From the IMG/VR virus record IMGVR_UViG_3300037149_000040, positions 1 to 31,078 of that record: a DNA stretch of 31,078 bases. One strand, 5' to 3'. Under the pieces are notes generated by a model. That model made no database searches, was not told the DNA's origin, and saw only the letters and a program-made list of their open reading frames with translations. The DNA is from a virus. A program made the position numbers and the translations under genes. Position 1 is the first letter of the stretch, and each line of letters begins with the position of its first letter. Positions 5,662 through 31,078 of this stretch are shown here, one piece after another.

Positions 5662-6020
5662 TTCTCGCCCCCTTCCCTCTTGTCCGGGGATATGTAGCGC
5701 GGCCGAAAGCCTCCGCGTGCCTTCTGCACCTCTGGCGATACCGCCGTCCCCGGCTTCTGGCGCTTCGTGTAGGCACGCTTGGGCTTCGGTACGTCCGGCA
5801 TCTTTTCAGCAGAAGGAAGGAAGTCTTCCGATGTCTCTGTCTCCTGGCTATATTCAGCCAGTACCTCCGTCTTGCCTAGATTGTCCACACGAAACTGGAC
5901 TGTCAGGTGTGGGCGAATGGCCTTGGAGAATTGTGTAAGGATCAGAGCCGCAAGCTCTTCCTGGTAGATCACACGCTCGAAGCTCCTGGTGGTTGTGATG
6001 GTGATCTTCTCGCCCTTCAT
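5658..6020 (-). CDS. Hypothetical protein with basic C-terminal tail
   Basis: The start at 6020 is the ATG in ATGA, overlapping the preceding stop; longer upstream frames would run through the neighbouring gene. The 120 residues divide into an N-terminal strand-helix-strand region (about 1-60) and a C-terminal tail rich in Lys, Arg and Pro (K-P-K-R-A-Y-T-K-R-Q-K). The tail suggests nucleic-acid or protein contact. No family is recognised. Confidence 0.7.
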   Translation of the reverse strand: MKGEKITITTTRSFERVIYQEELAALILTQFSKAIRPHLTVQFRVDNLGKTEVLAEYSQETETSEDFLPSAEKMPDVPKPKRAYTKRQKPGTAVSPEVQKARGGFRPRYISPDKREGGEK

Positions 6021-6394
6021 TTCGCCGGCCCCATCAGCATCTTGAAGGCATCGACGGGCACGTTGGCGATTCGCGTTTTCAGCACCGAAGCGCGCAACTC
6101 GGCATTGTCTTCTCCGGCGAGAATGCGCCGCAGCCCCTCCTCTTTGATCACACACCAATTGCCAGTGGGTCGGCACGTTTCCGACGGCGCGTCCTCCGTG
6201 ACTTCGACCAACGTAATGCCTAGCGCACGCTCCGACTTGCACGCATCGCAAGGTGCGTAGTCGAACACGGCGTTGCGCGGTGCTTCCACATCGTCTTTGA
6301 GCTGGCCCATGAGAGCGATTTCGTTCTTGGGCTTGCCACACCAGAAACACACTGGGATGGTGGCGTTGACGCCGTGCTTAGGTGAGAGTTTCAT
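6017..6394 (-). CDS. Zinc-ribbon phage protein
   Basis: The 125-residue protein begins with C-F-W-C-G-K at residues 16-21 and continues with Y-A-P-C-D-A-C at about 46-52, giving two C-x-x-C pairs that can hold one zinc ion. The order C-x-W-C-G-K, then G-I-T-L-V-E-V, matches a zinc-ribbon protein I recall from many phages and Firmicutes mobile elements. Its role is unknown. It is the first gene behind a promoter and 5' hairpin, with SD GAGGAGCGCACC before the ATG. Confidence 0.75.
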   Translation of the reverse strand: MKLSPKHGVNATIPVCFWCGKPKNEIALMGQLKDDVEAPRNAVFDYAPCDACKSERALGITLVEVTEDAPSETCRPTGNWCVIKEEGLRRILAGEDNAELRASVLKTRIANVPVDAFKMLMGPAK

Positions 6395-25334: not shown

Positions 25335-27482
25335 TTAGCGCTCCTGTCGTTGTGTGTACTTCTTCTGCTCTTCTTCCATCCGATGTAGCCGCCCTAGGTA
25401 CTTCGCCCTATCTCCTTTGCGCATCTCCATGCGCGCCTTGATGCCGATGAAATTCCCCTCCTCATCGTAATGGTCAATCGTAGGCTCCACGTACACCGGT
25501 GGGCGCTCGACACGATCCGAGATCCATAGCACGCGCATCCATTCCTGTGACACCTTTCTTGGAATCTCAATCGCGCGGTTGATCAGCCATGGACGGACGT
25601 TGCGCCCATCCGGAAGCCTGAGTTGCGCCACACCAAGCGGCTGGCGGAAGCCTTCTTGACGGATTGCGCGCGCGAGCCCATTTTTGCTCCAGTTCGGCCT
25701 ATTCGCACGTAGAAGCAACTCATCCGTGGTCATGAGCGCGTGCATTCCGCGCACCTCACCGGTTCCCCAACACGTGTTGATCCACTCACTCATGTCCGAT
25801 CGTGAATCCTCGATCATGATCTGCTTGTCCTCGGTCATCGGCGCCGGGCGGAATGGCTCAAACCCAGTGAGATCAAGCGTCTTCAGATGATACATGAGCG
25901 CATTGATCCCGCGCTCGGAGCGATACCAGTGATCGTATGTGGAGGTGTACCATTCCGGTGGAAGCGGCTCTCCCTTGATCTCCACCACGAAATAGCGACG
26001 ATCCTTTCCTTCAAGAAAGAGAACGTCGCAATGGTTGCTGGTGAAGAGGTAGTTGATGCAATCCCTGATCTCGTATGTGGGGATGTACTTCTGATTCACC
26101 TCGATTCTTTGGCCGGTAATCATGCCCTTGAGCTTATTCCCTAGCTGCCGCTTCTCTCCACCGCCTGATCCCGTGATCTCGTCGGCTAGGATGAATTGCC
26201 GGTTCGTGGCGTAGGCGTTGAACGCTGAGTCAAGATCACGGTCGCCGATCTCCTTGTAGTTGTCCCCGTAGATTCTCCCTAGCGTGTAACCCACGAGCGT
26301 CTTACCTGTGCCTTGCTCGAACGACCAGAAAACTACCGCGGTATAGAGCTTAGTGCCTGGGCGCTGAATCGGGTAGGCGCACCATTGCTCGAACCATTTC
26401 CGATGTTCCGGGGACGTGTCCTTGAAGATGTAGTCCAGGAGTGTCGTCCATGGCTTGATGTTTCCCTTGACCGGTTTCGCTCCCCATCCTTTCCATTGGT
26501 TGTACTCGCCTTGTTTTGTGATCTCCCCTTCGCCTGGAGAGTACGCCATCTTCGACGCAACCGCGCGGCCGGGCCACTCTAGCCATTCCTTGGGAACGGA
26601 GCATGACGTGACCTTGTTCGGATCAGCATCGGTGGGAGTGGGCTTGAGGTACTTCCGATCCGCATAGAGCGGCATTACTAGATCCCGTGCCGACACACGC
26701 TGGCCGGTGGCGCGAATGACACACACTCCTGGATCGCGTATGAAGATCACCTCTTCGTTGAACTTGCGGAGTGAGGATGAAGTTTTCCACTCCTCGGCTT
26801 TATCCACAAGCTTGAGGAGCCGCGCACGTCCACCATGCTTGTCAATGAGGTAATCGTCCAAGCCTGTCTTGCCGTCCTTGGAGAGCGATGGAAGACGGAT
26901 GATGTGCACACGCGCACCGCGATTCACCAACCGTTGCGCAAGCGCATTCTCGGCCTGGAGGATGCTAGTGTTCTGGTCAGCGTCGGAATCGTAGCATATA
27001 TAGACATCCCGCCCCGCCCACGTGATCTGCTCAAGATCCGGCACAAGCTCTTGAAGCTTAGCTTTGGAACCGAAGCTCCACACGCCACCGAGCCCGATAG
27101 TGCACACGTCATTCTTGGTTGCACACGCTGCTTTCTTCTCACCTTCCGTGATGAAGATCGGCATGGATGCGTCTTTGTTGCGGGCTGCCCAATCCACAAA
27201 TGGAGGAAAATACACTCGGACGGGCGAACCCTTCAACTGAAAATATTTGTTCTTTGAGCGCTTACCTAGAAACCTATAGCGCCAAAAATCAGTCTCTTTC
27301 CCATTGGCATCGAAGTACGGAATTTTGAAGCCAGGGATGTCGAAGCCGGTAAGATCCACGGCGCGCGCACCGGAGAATGCCTCCATGTGCAGCTTCTTGG
27401 CATCGGTGTGATCGAGGCCCGATGCTGCAAGGGCGGAGATCATCGCGGTAGATGAGTCAATCTCGGGGCGCGCGCTCCTCAT
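25335..27482 (-). CDS. Primase-helicase: Toprim-like plus SF3 ATPase
   Basis: The 715-residue protein has an N-terminal Toprim-like (DUF3854-type) region, with I-T-E-G-E-K-K-A at 111-118 (Glu113) and Y-I-C-Y-D-S-D-A-D at 161-169. A D5/SF3-like ATPase follows: F-E-Q-G-T-G-K-T at 388-395 (Walker A), F-I-L-A-D-E-I at 430-436 (Walker B), N-Y-L-F-T-S-N-H at 477-484, and D-R-R-Y at 494-497 as a likely arginine finger. It would open DNA and prime synthesis for the PolA made later in the operon. Its ATG overlaps the previous stop. Confidence 0.93.
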   Translation of the reverse strand: MRSARPEIDSSTAMISALAASGLDHTDAKKLHMEAFSGARAVDLTGFDIPGFKIPYFDANGKETDFWRYRFLGKRSKNKYFQLKGSPVRVYFPPFVDWAARNKDASMPIFITEGEKKAACATKNDVCTIGLGGVWSFGSKAKLQELVPDLEQITWAGRDVYICYDSDADQNTSILQAENALAQRLVNRGARVHIIRLPSLSKDGKTGLDDYLIDKHGGRARLLKLVDKAEEWKTSSSLRKFNEEVIFIRDPGVCVIRATGQRVSARDLVMPLYADRKYLKPTPTDADPNKVTSCSVPKEWLEWPGRAVASKMAYSPGEGEITKQGEYNQWKGWGAKPVKGNIKPWTTLLDYIFKDTSPEHRKWFEQWCAYPIQRPGTKLYTAVVFWSFEQGTGKTLVGYTLGRIYGDNYKEIGDRDLDSAFNAYATNRQFILADEITGSGGGEKRQLGNKLKGMITGQRIEVNQKYIPTYEIRDCINYLFTSNHCDVLFLEGKDRRYFVVEIKGEPLPPEWYTSTYDHWYRSERGINALMYHLKTLDLTGFEPFRPAPMTEDKQIMIEDSRSDMSEWINTCWGTGEVRGMHALMTTDELLLRANRPNWSKNGLARAIRQEGFRQPLGVAQLRLPDGRNVRPWLINRAIEIPRKVSQEWMRVLWISDRVERPPVYVEPTIDHYDEEGNFIGIKARMEMRKGDRAKYLGRLHRMEEEQKKYTQRQER

Positions 27483-27661
27483 GATTTGCGCTCCATGTGG
27501 GAGGCTAGGAAATCTTCGAGTGAGACGATGATGCGGAGTGGCTCCGCTCCTGGTTTTGTGGACAATTCAATGTAGTCACCTGAATCCGTGGGAGACACGC
27601 CAAGATCGCCGATGAATGTAGCCGGGTACTGTAAAGTAGTGATTGTGATTTCGCTTTTCAT
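27479..27661 (-). CDS. Hypothetical small protein
   Basis: The ATG at 27661 overlaps the stop of the first gene (ATGA), with AGAGG before it. The 60 residues are beta-rich: S-E-I-T-I-T-T-L-Q-Y, D-Y-I-E-L-S-T, L-R-I-I-V-S-L-E-D-F-L. The final short helix may fold over the sheet. Not recognised. Confidence 0.65.
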   Translation of the reverse strand: MKSEITITTLQYPATFIGDLGVSPTDSGDYIELSTKPGAEPLRIIVSLEDFLASHMERKS

Positions 27662-28206
27662 AGCAACCTCTTCTTGTGCGTTTGCTCCCACTTCTCTAGC
27701 TTGTGACACATGCGCAGATACGTACGTAGGTCCCTGGGAATGCCGGACTTCCCATACTTCTTCTTTAGGTGGCGTAGGTATTGTTTAAACGAGGTAAACC
27801 CGGACGGCGGCTTTGGCTCGAAGCACGCACATGCGGGGCGCACACATGCACGCTCCCGCACACTTCTAGCATCTAGGTATCGTGCGTATTCTTGTTTGTA
27901 GAACTCCGGGGATTCGCACCGGGCGCAATAGTCCAACCATCTGCGCCAATCCGCGAGAGTCAATCTCTGCGACCTGTTATATAGTCTCCTAGCTTCATAG
28001 AGCTTTTTCATGGAGGTGTAATACTCCGGCGATGCCGCGAGCTTACATCTATGCAACCATGCCTTCCATGTGGACCACCCGTACGGACCCCGCGCGCTCA
28101 TCAAGAGCACGCGCCCGAGTTTCGTATCTCCGGTCACTCGTCTAGCCTTCCAAGACCAAATACTCTCCGGGACTTCGACGGCTCGGCCATCCTCATCGTG
28201 GCGCAT
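27658..28206 (-). CDS. First leftward gene: Trp-rich triple-repeat protein
   Basis: The ATG at 28206 is chosen over upstream in-frame starts because GGAGAG lies 4 bases before it; the longer frame would begin inside the leader RNA structure. The 182 residues contain two clear repeats, W-K-A-W-L-H-R-C ... S-P-E-Y-Y ... Y-E-A-R-R and W-R-R-W-L-D-Y-C ... S-P-E-F-Y ... Y-L-D-A-R, and a third, degenerate one (F-K-Q-Y-L-R-H-L ... Y-L-R-M-C). Each looks like a helical hairpin. The protein is very basic. As the first gene from the strongest promoter it may be an early host-takeover or DNA-binding protein, but no family is known to me. Confidence 0.75.
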   Translation of the reverse strand: MRHDEDGRAVEVPESIWSWKARRVTGDTKLGRVLLMSARGPYGWSTWKAWLHRCKLAASPEYYTSMKKLYEARRLYNRSQRLTLADWRRWLDYCARCESPEFYKQEYARYLDARSVRERACVRPACACFEPKPPSGFTSFKQYLRHLKKKYGKSGIPRDLRTYLRMCHKLEKWEQTHKKRLL

Positions 28207-28240
28207 AACACTCTCCATAGGTTTTGTTGTGTGGTGGGTT

Positions 28241-28340
28241 GCTCTCGGGTGTTCGCCTATCCTGCTCTTACGAGTGTCAGAGGAGCTTGACATTACGGGC
28301 GACACCACACCGCCCCGGATTTCGGCGAACACCCGAGAGC
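28241..28340 (-). ncRNA. Structured leader RNA candidate
   Basis: Read on the minus strand, a perfect 17-bp stem pairs GCTCTCGGGTGTTCGCC (28324-28340) with its complement (28241-28257). Inside, ATCC pairs with GGAT, followed by hairpins GGGCG/CGCCC, TGTCA/TGACA and CTC-GTAA-GAG (a GNRA-type loop). The predicted transcription start, 8 bases after the -10, coincides with the first base of the long stem (G, 28340). After the stem comes an A/C-rich unpaired stretch and the SD of the first gene. No known RNA family is recognised. Confidence 0.7.
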
Positions 28341-28347
28341 ACGGTCA

Positions 28348-28375
28348 ATTATAATCGTGCTTAAAAGAGCGTCAA
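28348..28375 (-). promoter_or_regulatory. Main promoter of the leftward array
   Basis: On the minus strand TTGACG (28370-28375), 16 bases, perfect TATAAT (28348-28353). It is among the best promoters in the window and is the only clear one upstream of the primase-helicase block. Confidence 0.9.
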
Positions 28376-28571
28376 GCGGAATTTACAAGAACCTTATAGC
28401 TAGTATTTGCTATATTTAGATCTTGACCACGTAGGTCACAATAATTTTATTACCTAGTTAGATTTGTAGGTAGTTAGCTTTGTAGCACGAGGGCAAAATC
28501 TATCGCGCCACCAAAACCTGGACGTGTGTGCTCCCACAAATCGCCCTAGTTCTACAAAGCTAAGAAAAACA

Positions 28572-28636
28572 CGTAAGTGTTGATCGCCGTACTTGTGCGT
28601 AGGACTTCTTCGCACAAGTAATTACCAACACTTACG
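28572..28636. repeat. Two-part nested inverted repeat
   Basis: Outer arms CGTAAGTGTTG / CAACACTTACG (11 bp) enclose inner arms TACTTGTGCG / CGCACAAGTA (10 bp), separated by 7- and 5-base bulges, with an 11-base loop. Both arms are perfect. It could extrude as a cruciform or fold as RNA on either strand. Confidence 0.9.
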
Positions 28637-29399
28637 GCCGGCTACGTTACAATGCCCTAAAAATCGGCCGATTTTGAAATCCACCTAAGACGTGTATTTT
28701 CATATAGCTACAAATCTACGAACTTGTGGGCCAATCCTAGAACACGAAATCGGCAAAATCGTGATATCTGAGTTTTTCGCGGTATTTGTATAGATGCGCA
28801 CCGCTACTACGTTTGCAAGAAACTACATCGTCAACACCGTGTTCTAGGGGCTTAAACCTCTCTCTATGTACTCCCCCCTCTCTCTTTCTCTTTCTCTTTC
28901 TCTTACCTATTATTTTTCTAAGAAGAAATAAAGATAGTGAAGAAAAGAAGCTAAGGAGTAGTGGTGTGGCCGTTCTTCAAAATTTTCTTCAGATTTGATT
29001 TTTGCCCGGAATGTGAAGAGAGTGGTGAAGAGATTTTCCGCGCCGTTCGGCCGTGACCCCCACATTCTAGGGCATCTACGTGATGCACAAAGTCACTTTG
29101 GAGAGTGTGCTTCGTAAATGCACGCCCCGCGCGAGGCCGTCAATCCTCAATTCCTTGTTGCAACGTCCCCGCAAACCCGCATGAACAGGGCGTCTACAAA
29201 AGTGAGTGTTTATGCGGTTCTACAAGCAAAGCCACTGACAGTGTGGCTTTGCGGTCAACGTAAGTTTGGCGCTACGGAAAGTGTAGCGAACGTAAGTGTT
29301 GACTACAATCCTACGAAATGAATGTTGAAACCCGCAAACGCAATGGCAGCGCGGCACGGATTGCTATAACGTGTCGTGGAGCGGTTCTACGTGGCGCAG

Positions 29400-29421
29400 C
29401 ACCAATGTTGCAACATTGGTG
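29400..29421. repeat. 22-bp perfect palindrome inside a wider inverted repeat
   Basis: The centre is ACCAATGTTGCAACATTGGT with one more C-G pair outside. GCGGTTCTA (29381-29389) and TAGAACCGC (29425-29433) flank it. It looks like a strong dimer-protein binding site or cruciform. Confidence 0.9.
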
Positions 29422-29617
29422 AGCTAGAACCGCGTGAATACTTGGTTTGACGTTGTTACAACATTGCTCCGCCTACTCAATAGGCTAATTCTGCGTGAGG
29501 AATGGCCCTGCGACCGTGTTCCAGACCAATATTCGGCTAAAACACGCGTAAATCCTCAATTCTTGCCTACAAGGGGCCTGCACGGCCTCGAAATCGCTTG
29601 GGAGGGGAGATATAGCC

Positions 29618-29645
29618 TTGACACGGCTACCGAGGCACCTACACT
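29618..29645 (+). promoter_or_regulatory. Rightward promoter of the ParB-like gene
   Basis: A perfect -35 TTGACA (29618-29623), 16 bases and TACACT (29640-29645) lie 37 bases before the ATG. The predicted start is near 29652. No strong SD is seen before the ATG, so initiation may depend on other features. Confidence 0.6.
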
Positions 29646-29682
29646 AGCCCTGTAGCCCGCGCGTGGGCTTGAAAGCACCCAT

Positions 29683-31078
29683 ATGAGCCTCAAGAAGCCA
29701 AAAACCCCGAAAAGGGCGGTTCCTGTGCCGAGTGTGGGCGTTTCGCTCAATGGCCGTGTGATTCTGCACAAGAAGCACGGCCAGGGCGGCGAGTTTCACG
29801 GCAAGAAGGCCACGAAGAACGGCGTGGCCAGTGCGGTGCCCGCTCATGCGAAGCATGGGACGCGGAAAGCCACGGATAGCGCCAGCGACTCAGCCGCGCA
29901 ACGTCCGTTGGGGGCCAGCCCGTTGAATCAGCCTCTCCACGTGGGGACACATGGAGCGCGGAAAGCCACGGATACCAACGTTGCCGAGAAGGCCGCTGGG
30001 CAACGTCCGTTGGGGGCCAAGCACGGAGAGCGCGGGGTGGTGGGGCATCGTGGGGAAGTTTCAACGCCTGGAAAAGTTTCGACCTTGCTCATGAGCACTC
30101 CGCCCACCGAAACCAAAAAAGGCAATTCCAAGAAGCCTCTTGTGGAAGCGCTCCGCAGTAGGATCGTAGGTCATGAGAACGTGTCACCGGATCTGATCAA
30201 GGCGCACGTGCTCAATTTCCGCAAGCACGGCGATGCGCAGATGAAGGCGCTCCGTGGCTCGATGGATGACATGGGGTGGCTCAAGGAAATCCTCGTTTCC
30301 AGGCGGACGAACACGATCATCGACGGCCACGCTCGGTGGGAAGAGGCGAAGCGTAGGAAGCTACCTTTTGTGCCCGTTACGTTCGTAGATCTTACGAAGG
30401 ACGAAGAGAACAAAGCCCTGGCCTTGCTCGATCCGATCACAGAGATGGCGACACGCGACGACGCCCTTTTCCTCAAGCTCTTGGACTCCGTGAAGACCGA
30501 CAACGACAGCATCAACGAAGTGCTCACGAAGATGTCCAAGCTCAAGGACATGCCTGAGATCACGAAGGTGCAGACCACGGACGAGATTCTCGAATACAGG
30601 ACGGACGTGTATTTCCCGTCCACAAACAAATGGGGCATTCCTGATCTCGATCCGAAGATGCTCTATGACGGCCCCGCTCCACACACGACGTGGCCGAAGA
30701 AGGATGACAGCGGCCGGCCGCAATTCTACGTGTTCGGTGAGGGCGGCTTTGATGAGCGCGTCACGGGCAAGATCCTAACTTTCTACACAGAGGATTGGCG
30801 GTTCGAGCGTGTGTGGGCCGAGAGCGTGGAATCGTTGAAGAAGATCGCGCCCCTCCATCCGGCCGCATTCACAGCGCCGGATTTTTCGTTGTTCGGTGAT
30901 GATCCACTCGTCGTGCAAATGTGGAACATCTACCGGGCCCGGTGGGTTGCGCGCTACTGGCAGAAAGCGGGACTCCGGTTGATCCCCTCGCTCGCCACTT
31001 CCACGAATCAGGATTGCTACGAGTTCGCGTACGCGGGCTTGCCAAAACATCCTTCGCTCATGAGTATGCAACTCCGGC
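29683..31078 (+). CDS. ParB-like/DUF4417 fusion, truncated at window end
   Basis: The open frame gives 465 residues and runs off the window. Residues 1-150 are basic and disordered, with a duplicated segment (R-K-A-T-D ... Q-R-P-L-G-A at 61-78 and 93-112). Residues 165-270 form a ParB/Srx-like domain: V-L-N-F-R-K-H-G, I-I-D-G-H-A-R-W-E-E-A-K-R, V-P-V-T-F-V-D-L. The C-terminal part has M-W-N-I-Y-R-A-R-W-V-A-R-Y-W-Q-K-A-G and L-I-P-S-L-A-T, then F-A-Y-A-G-L-P-K, which fits DUF4417. Phage ParB-like proteins of this sort often head late or packaging regions. The start is the only ATG after an in-frame stop at 29653. Function is unknown. Confidence 0.8.
   Translation, partial: MSLKKPKTPKRAVPVPSVGVSLNGRVILHKKHGQGGEFHGKKATKNGVASAVPAHAKHGTRKATDSASDSAAQRPLGASPLNQPLHVGTHGARKATDTNVAEKAAGQRPLGAKHGERGVVGHRGEVSTPGKVSTLLMSTPPTETKKGNSKKPLVEALRSRIVGHENVSPDLIKAHVLNFRKHGDAQMKALRGSMDDMGWLKEILVSRRTNTIIDGHARWEEAKRRKLPFVPVTFVDLTKDEENKALALLDPITEMATRDDALFLKLLDSVKTDNDSINEVLTKMSKLKDMPEITKVQTTDEILEYRTDVYFPSTNKWGIPDLDPKMLYDGPAPHTTWPKKDDSGRPQFYVFGEGGFDERVTGKILTFYTEDWRFERVWAESVESLKKIAPLHPAAFTAPDFSLFGDDPLVVQMWNIYRARWVARYWQKAGLRLIPSLATSTNQDCYEFAYAGLPKHPSLMSMQLR
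29862..30019 (+). repeat. In-frame imperfect duplication in the ParB-like gene
   Basis: GCGGAAAGCCACGGATA occurs at 29862-29878 and 29958-29974, and CAACGTCCGTTGGGGGCCA at 29899-29917 and 30001-30019. The spacings (96 and 102 bp) keep the reading frame. The segment between them has diverged. Confidence 0.9.

Follow-up and report, generated by a model that had tools for sequence, protein, structure and literature searches.

Among immunity RNAs, C4 and CI are textbook cases, found in a small number of temperate phages and satellites. The CI RNA of satellite phage P4 is a short processed RNA derived from the leader of the primase operon, which pairs with leader sequences and stops expression, and the put element of phage HK022 is a structured antitermination RNA that opens an early transcript. 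C4 is processed at its 5' end by RNase P at the foot of its P1 stem, and has a b' loop that acts over the ribosome-binding site and an a' loop that confers target specificity (PMC5320573).

The window analysed here, the whole 31,078-base record of an uncultivated phage, possesses a structured RNA at the head of its leftward replication operon. The balance of the analysis tilts towards an antisense leader RNA resembling C4, which would be processed, act in trans and limit expression of this operon.

Promoter, operon and structure of the leader RNA

With the adjacent primase as the query for relatives of the window, L001 (from IMG/VR) was the only close relative in the collections searched; its primase is 79% identical, and the next loci reach at most 59%. 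The main features of the leftward operon are as follows.

28375-28348, minus strand: sigma-70-type promoter TTGACG-N16-TATAAT, matching 11 of 12 consensus positions, with hexamers and spacing identical in L001
28341-28240, minus strand: structured leader RNA of 102 nt, closed by the 18-bp stem P1 (folding z about -7, covariation with L001, covariance model)
28216-28211, minus strand: Shine-Dalgarno sequence GGAGAG of the first gene, read from the sequence
28206-27658, minus strand: first gene, whose 182-aa product has no known function (homologue in L001, 54% identical)
27482-25335, minus strand: replicative primase (DUF3854 and DUF5906), the second main gene (PHROG 1156, E 1e-34; Pfam)

No other such promoter site was found on the minus strand within 27400-31078 (3.7 kb). 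Because the first base of the stem lies 6-7 nt past the -10 box, transcription is predicted to start at the stem or no more than about 2 nt away from it. A sequence-only reading of this DNA had drawn the same conclusion from the same promoter and had named a start more than about 15 nt from 28340 as telling against it; the start predicted from the promoter consensus falls at the stem. The A/C-rich spacer described in that reading is present, as are the GGAGAG that follows it and the ATG at 28206; an in-frame ATG at 28218 overlaps the Shine-Dalgarno sequence. The protein encoded by the first gene has no Pfam or PHROG match, and used as a query it recovered only its homologue in L001.

Several other sequence elements were observed around the two divergent operons. 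Upstream of the leftward promoter (28377-28429, minus strand), the blocks GGTCAAGATCTAAATA..GCAAATAC and CTTGTAAATT are kept in both the window and L001 and are likely to be binding sites of a transcription regulator. The divergent right operon has the promoter TTGACA-N16-TACACT (29618-29645, plus strand), followed by a small GC hairpin. Between the operons are two more large inverted repeats (28474-28563 and 28571-28640), which fold with z of -4 to -6 on both strands and have 21-nt arms that are 90% complementary, with a nested hairpin of 11 + 10 bp; no long hairpins like these were found in the matching intergenic region of L001. A perfect 22-bp palindrome, CACCAATGTTGCAACATTGGTG, at 29400-29421 and a second element, TGTTACAACATTG, at 29454-29466 lie close to a ParB-like gene (29683-31077, plus strand; assigned by eye), and these palindromes are possible partition or operator sites.

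The leader RNA itself consists of the closing stem, a 4-bp AUCC/GGAU stem inside it, and three hairpins.

28341-28324, minus strand: 5' strand of P1, half of a perfect 18-bp inverted repeat with six double compensatory changes relative to L001
28257-28240, minus strand: 3' strand of P1, the other half of the 18-bp inverted repeat, sharing the six double compensatory changes
28315-28297, minus strand: P2 hairpin, 6 bp, with three double compensatory changes relative to L001
28292-28275, minus strand: P3 hairpin UGUCA/UGACA, with the invariant loop AGCUCCUC (from the fold and the L001 alignment)
28274-28265, minus strand: P4 hairpin CUC-GUAA-GAG, which is CCC-GAA-GGG in L001, with one double compensatory change

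The segment 28340-28241 (minus strand) folds at -55.6 kcal/mol (z -7.1), none of 200 shuffled sequences folding as low, and the minimum free energy structure is identical to the centroid, so that a single structure dominates. The compact multi-hairpin RNA that had been recognised by eye at the start of the operon is thus recovered by computation, with its ATCC/GGAT stem and its three hairpins. Its closing stem, previously counted as a perfect 17 bp, is indeed perfect but extends to 18 bp when U28341-A28240 is included, and the GTAA (GNRA) loop that had been singled out is present in P4 of the window but is unconserved, L001 having a GAA triloop instead. Both DNA strands of the element fold well, so the strand is not named by folding alone; gene order, G-U pairs and the promoter all favour the minus strand.

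Conservation of the leader RNA in a related phage

L001 possesses the same promoter, spacing and leader element as the window. The stems of the two leader RNAs differ in sequence and retain their pairing, with ten double compensatory changes in all, which is the covariation that the sequence-only reading had proposed to look for in relatives. In the alignment of the two, 94% of pair cells are formed, versus 28-41% for slid structures, and none of 500 shuffles equalled this value. The core of the RNA (CCGAAA, GUCAAGCUCCUCUGAC and CAGGA) is nearly invariant, whereas the first genes of the two phages share just 54% identity. With only the window sequence as input, a covariance model detected L001 with an E value of 1e-15 among 82 loci (1.1 Mb), the only other match being the antisense of the window. 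Since pairs are kept despite the differing sequence, the leader is almost certainly a real and conserved RNA structure, for whose function these two genomes give strong evidence.

Scans for further members by short motifs were unproductive. An exact scan of viral contigs for the core GTCAAGCTCCTCTGAC gave 12 matches, of which L001 alone is real and the others are in unrelated contexts; a scan for GTGTGGTG-N6-22-CAAGCTCCTC gave 37 matches, none of which fits the model besides L001. No meaningful match to the leader element was found by BLASTN among cultured phages.

Complementarity between the RNA and its own leader

Two segments of the minus strand, one within the RNA and one downstream of it, are exact complements.

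28310-28303, minus strand: a', GUGUGGUG, the loop of P2 together with the G-U pair that closes it (invariant in L001, complementary to the a site)
28236-28229, minus strand: a site, CACCACAC, beginning 4 nt past the end of P1 and just before the Shine-Dalgarno sequence

The sequence-only reading missed this complementarity and offered a cis-regulatory RNA, a processed phage sRNA or a protein-binding RNA; the second of these fits best, because the P2 loop complements its own leader in both phages and the layout is that of the C4 RNA of phage P1. The a site is kept in L001 (7487-7494) within an otherwise divergent leader, where the match with a' reaches 10 bp; a second copy of CACCACAC upstream is found in L001 only. 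The loop and the site are predicted to be mostly accessible (mean unpaired probability of a', 0.81), with a loop-leader duplex of -14.5 kcal/mol. Compared with shuffled sequences, the match has a P value of 0.11 in the window and 0.02 in L001, modest values that are due to a short, CA-rich leader. Loop and site are identical in the two phages and so do not covary between them.

The loop of P3, AGCUCCUC, contains a CUCC that is complementary over 4 bp to the GGAG core of the Shine-Dalgarno sequence in both phages, and in the window only there is also a 7-bp match, GACACUC/GAGUGUU, beside the start codon; this loop may possibly correspond to b'. A pseudoknot in cis between a' and the a site was considered and rejected as geometrically impossible with P1 closed. 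Because a linker of 3 nt is too short to bridge a helix of about 22 bp, and the a site would be transcribed only once P1 had been completed, the geometry suggests that pairing takes place between two molecules, and a' therefore probably acts in trans.

Similar elements upstream of other phage primases

In more distant phages, similar elements with unrelated sequences are located upstream of the primase. In a blind test of the 325 nt before the primase at 78 non-redundant loci, a long stem (score of at least 30) was found in 28% of cases, whereas only 4% of the 2,719 control windows had one, a sevenfold enrichment (p 1.5e-12). In ten of the 17 best loci, picked by their stems alone, the stem is preceded at 4-9 nt by a -10-like hexamer, compared with about two expected from controls. 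A -10 element was likewise found 5-9 nt before the stem at 20 loci of a hand-curated set of 26, versus 0 to 7 at control offsets; this set is partly biased because some of its members were found via their promoters.

Segments inside the closed domain match their own downstream leader above shuffled sequences, both at the 26 curated loci (Fisher 5e-12) and in the blind set (combined P 5e-6, 14 loci tested), and the sequence of the loop/leader match varies from phage to phage. Start codons at these loci were assigned by eye. On that basis, element and leader of L067 match twice over 10 bp, once at -15 to -5 of the start codon; the match of L099, 12 bp long, runs across the Shine-Dalgarno sequence; L113 has a 9-bp match, ATCTCCGGT/ACCGGAGAT, at the Shine-Dalgarno sequence (-18 to -9) and another, TCCCTCAGC/GCTGAGGGG, further upstream, mostly of Watson-Crick pairs; and L103 has an 11-bp match. 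No convincing complementarity was found in L090, L097 and L119. The arrangement of a stem and a complement in the leader (CUCCUCAGC / GCUGAGGAG) is also carried by the cultured phages AXL3 and PW916. The virulent AXL3 is without lysogeny genes, and no lysogen of it could be isolated (PMC7504290); no integrase was found in a survey of its family (PMC11946847).

The RNA of the window and the other primase-leader RNAs share their position, the closing stem, the register to the start site and often a CUCC loop, and they share little sequence; they may be analogous rather than homologous. Just 3' of the closing stem there is often an ACC (A at 13 of 26 loci; CC at +2/+3 at 12 of 26, versus a background of 5.9%), which resembles the 3' end of a tRNA acceptor; examples are the window (28239-28237), L104, L113 and L070. 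The CC at +2/+3 is compatible with an RNase P-type or 3'-end signal and proves nothing. L002 and L003, whose primases are 59% identical to that of the window, have a 13-bp stem at a distance of 1.3 kb ahead of the primase; it was not counted because it is apparently within coding sequence and has no good -10 element. Repeated hairpins built on GTGTAACAC were observed near the primase region of L018 (3144-3592), and similar TGTTACA repeats in L038.

None of the elements upstream of primases in related phages was found to be annotated. In a limited check of the literature, the AXL3-family survey mentions no non-coding RNA (PMC11946847), and no paper was found that joins structured RNA, phage, primase and covariation. 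These observations tentatively suggest, as a possibility that does not quite reach the probable, a widespread class of C4-like antisense leader RNAs, apparently without annotation so far, at +1 of primase/replication operons in AXL3-like Mesyanzhinovviridae and their uncultivated relatives, each of which would rewrite its loops together with its own leader. Many of these RNAs would belong to non-lysogenic phages, in which they may time or cap early expression, or exclude superinfecting relatives, rather than provide prophage immunity. If this is true, self-directed antisense control would be a general phage strategy, virulent phages included, which would have stayed hidden because its sequences change too fast for family models. 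The cultured phages AXL3 and PW916 make the proposal directly testable.

Proposed mechanism and alternative explanations

In the proposed mechanism, transcription from the leftward promoter would begin at the stem, give or take about 2 nt, and the first 102 nt or so of the mRNA would fold, sealing the 5' end. The leader domain would probably be cut off in the A/C-rich spacer and persist as a small RNA with two exposed loops, GUGUGGUG of P2 (a') and AGCUCCUC of P3 (a possible b'). In a second mRNA molecule, a' would pair with CACCACAC upstream of the Shine-Dalgarno sequence, and b' may touch GGAG. Ribosome loading would then drop and, on the precedent of phage P1 C4, polarity would lower expression of the whole leftward operon. 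The RNA may in this way exert negative feedback on the replication genes, or it may shut out a superinfecting relative.

The same blunt stem at +1 could instead belong to a cis-acting 5' element, in which the sealed helix protects the 5' end of the mRNA and the fold is a platform for a ligand or for a protein of phage or host origin (for example, in autoregulation by the primase or by the first-gene product), and the match between loop and leader is incidental. A nearly invariant core is what would be expected of a binding site, but this explanation accounts neither for loops that match the leader and the Shine-Dalgarno sequence across many phages nor for the conservation of the a site in a divergent leader, and it is considered unlikely. 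Processive antitermination, in which a put-like RNA would act on RNA polymerase at the start of an operon of about 28 kb, would suit a set of structurally conserved stem-loops that directly follow the early promoter of a long operon. However, the divergent right operon has no copy of the RNA although its promoter is conserved: in the window, only a small hairpin and no second leader RNA was found after 29618-29645, and in L001 the promoter is kept near 6010-6065, again with no large leader RNA behind it. Nor does the element match any antitermination family known to Rfam, and this explanation appears improbable. The least probable alternative is a DNA-level feature, such as a replication-origin or cruciform hairpin near the primase and the ParB-like gene, for which two equally well-folding strands and the other large inverted repeats of the intergenic region would speak, and against which stand the fixed register to the promoter in many phages, the G-U pairs on the transcribed strand in P2 of both phages and the complementarity to the leader.

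Comparison with known RNAs

The Rfam search that had been suggested from the sequence yielded no family: at the curated cut-off there was no match in the window and 12 related loci, and permissive scans gave chance-level matches only (mir-4436 and similar). The C4 model (RF01695) has no match at E<=10 in the window, L001 or 11 other loci, whereas it identifies C4 of phage P1, used as a positive control, with 68.8 bits.

Like HK022 put, the RNA of the window is structured and located at the start of an early transcript; unlike put, it is present on one of two divergent operons only, has a different architecture, and carries loops that complement the leader. The likeness to the CI RNA of P4, which is not annotated in the P4 record, is drawn from its general description, and the window has a downstream site with no counterpart of the upstream target.

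The closest resemblance in layout is to C4 of phages P1 and P7. Both RNAs have a long closing stem around further hairpins, and the RNA of the window is situated, as C4 is, in the leader of the operon that it would control. In the annotated genome of phage P1, C4 occupies 48343-48419, with a2 beginning 4 nt on and b2 just before icd; the a site of the window is also at +4 past the end of the RNA. In phage P1, b2 lies on the ribosome-binding site; a possible counterpart in the window is the 4-bp CUCC/GGAG match found in both phages, the 7-bp match being specific to the window. Further differences from C4 are that the complementary segment is the P2 loop instead of a joining strand, that the window has no upstream a1b1 copy (and no match to RF03163), and that its RNA is predicted to start at the stem, with little or no 5' leader to remove. 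With a C4-like layout but no match to the model, the RNA is not a member of the C4 family as modelled. Unlike C4, which belongs to an antirepressor operon, the element of the window heads a replication operon, and the family of primase leaders to which it is compared includes phages without lysogeny.
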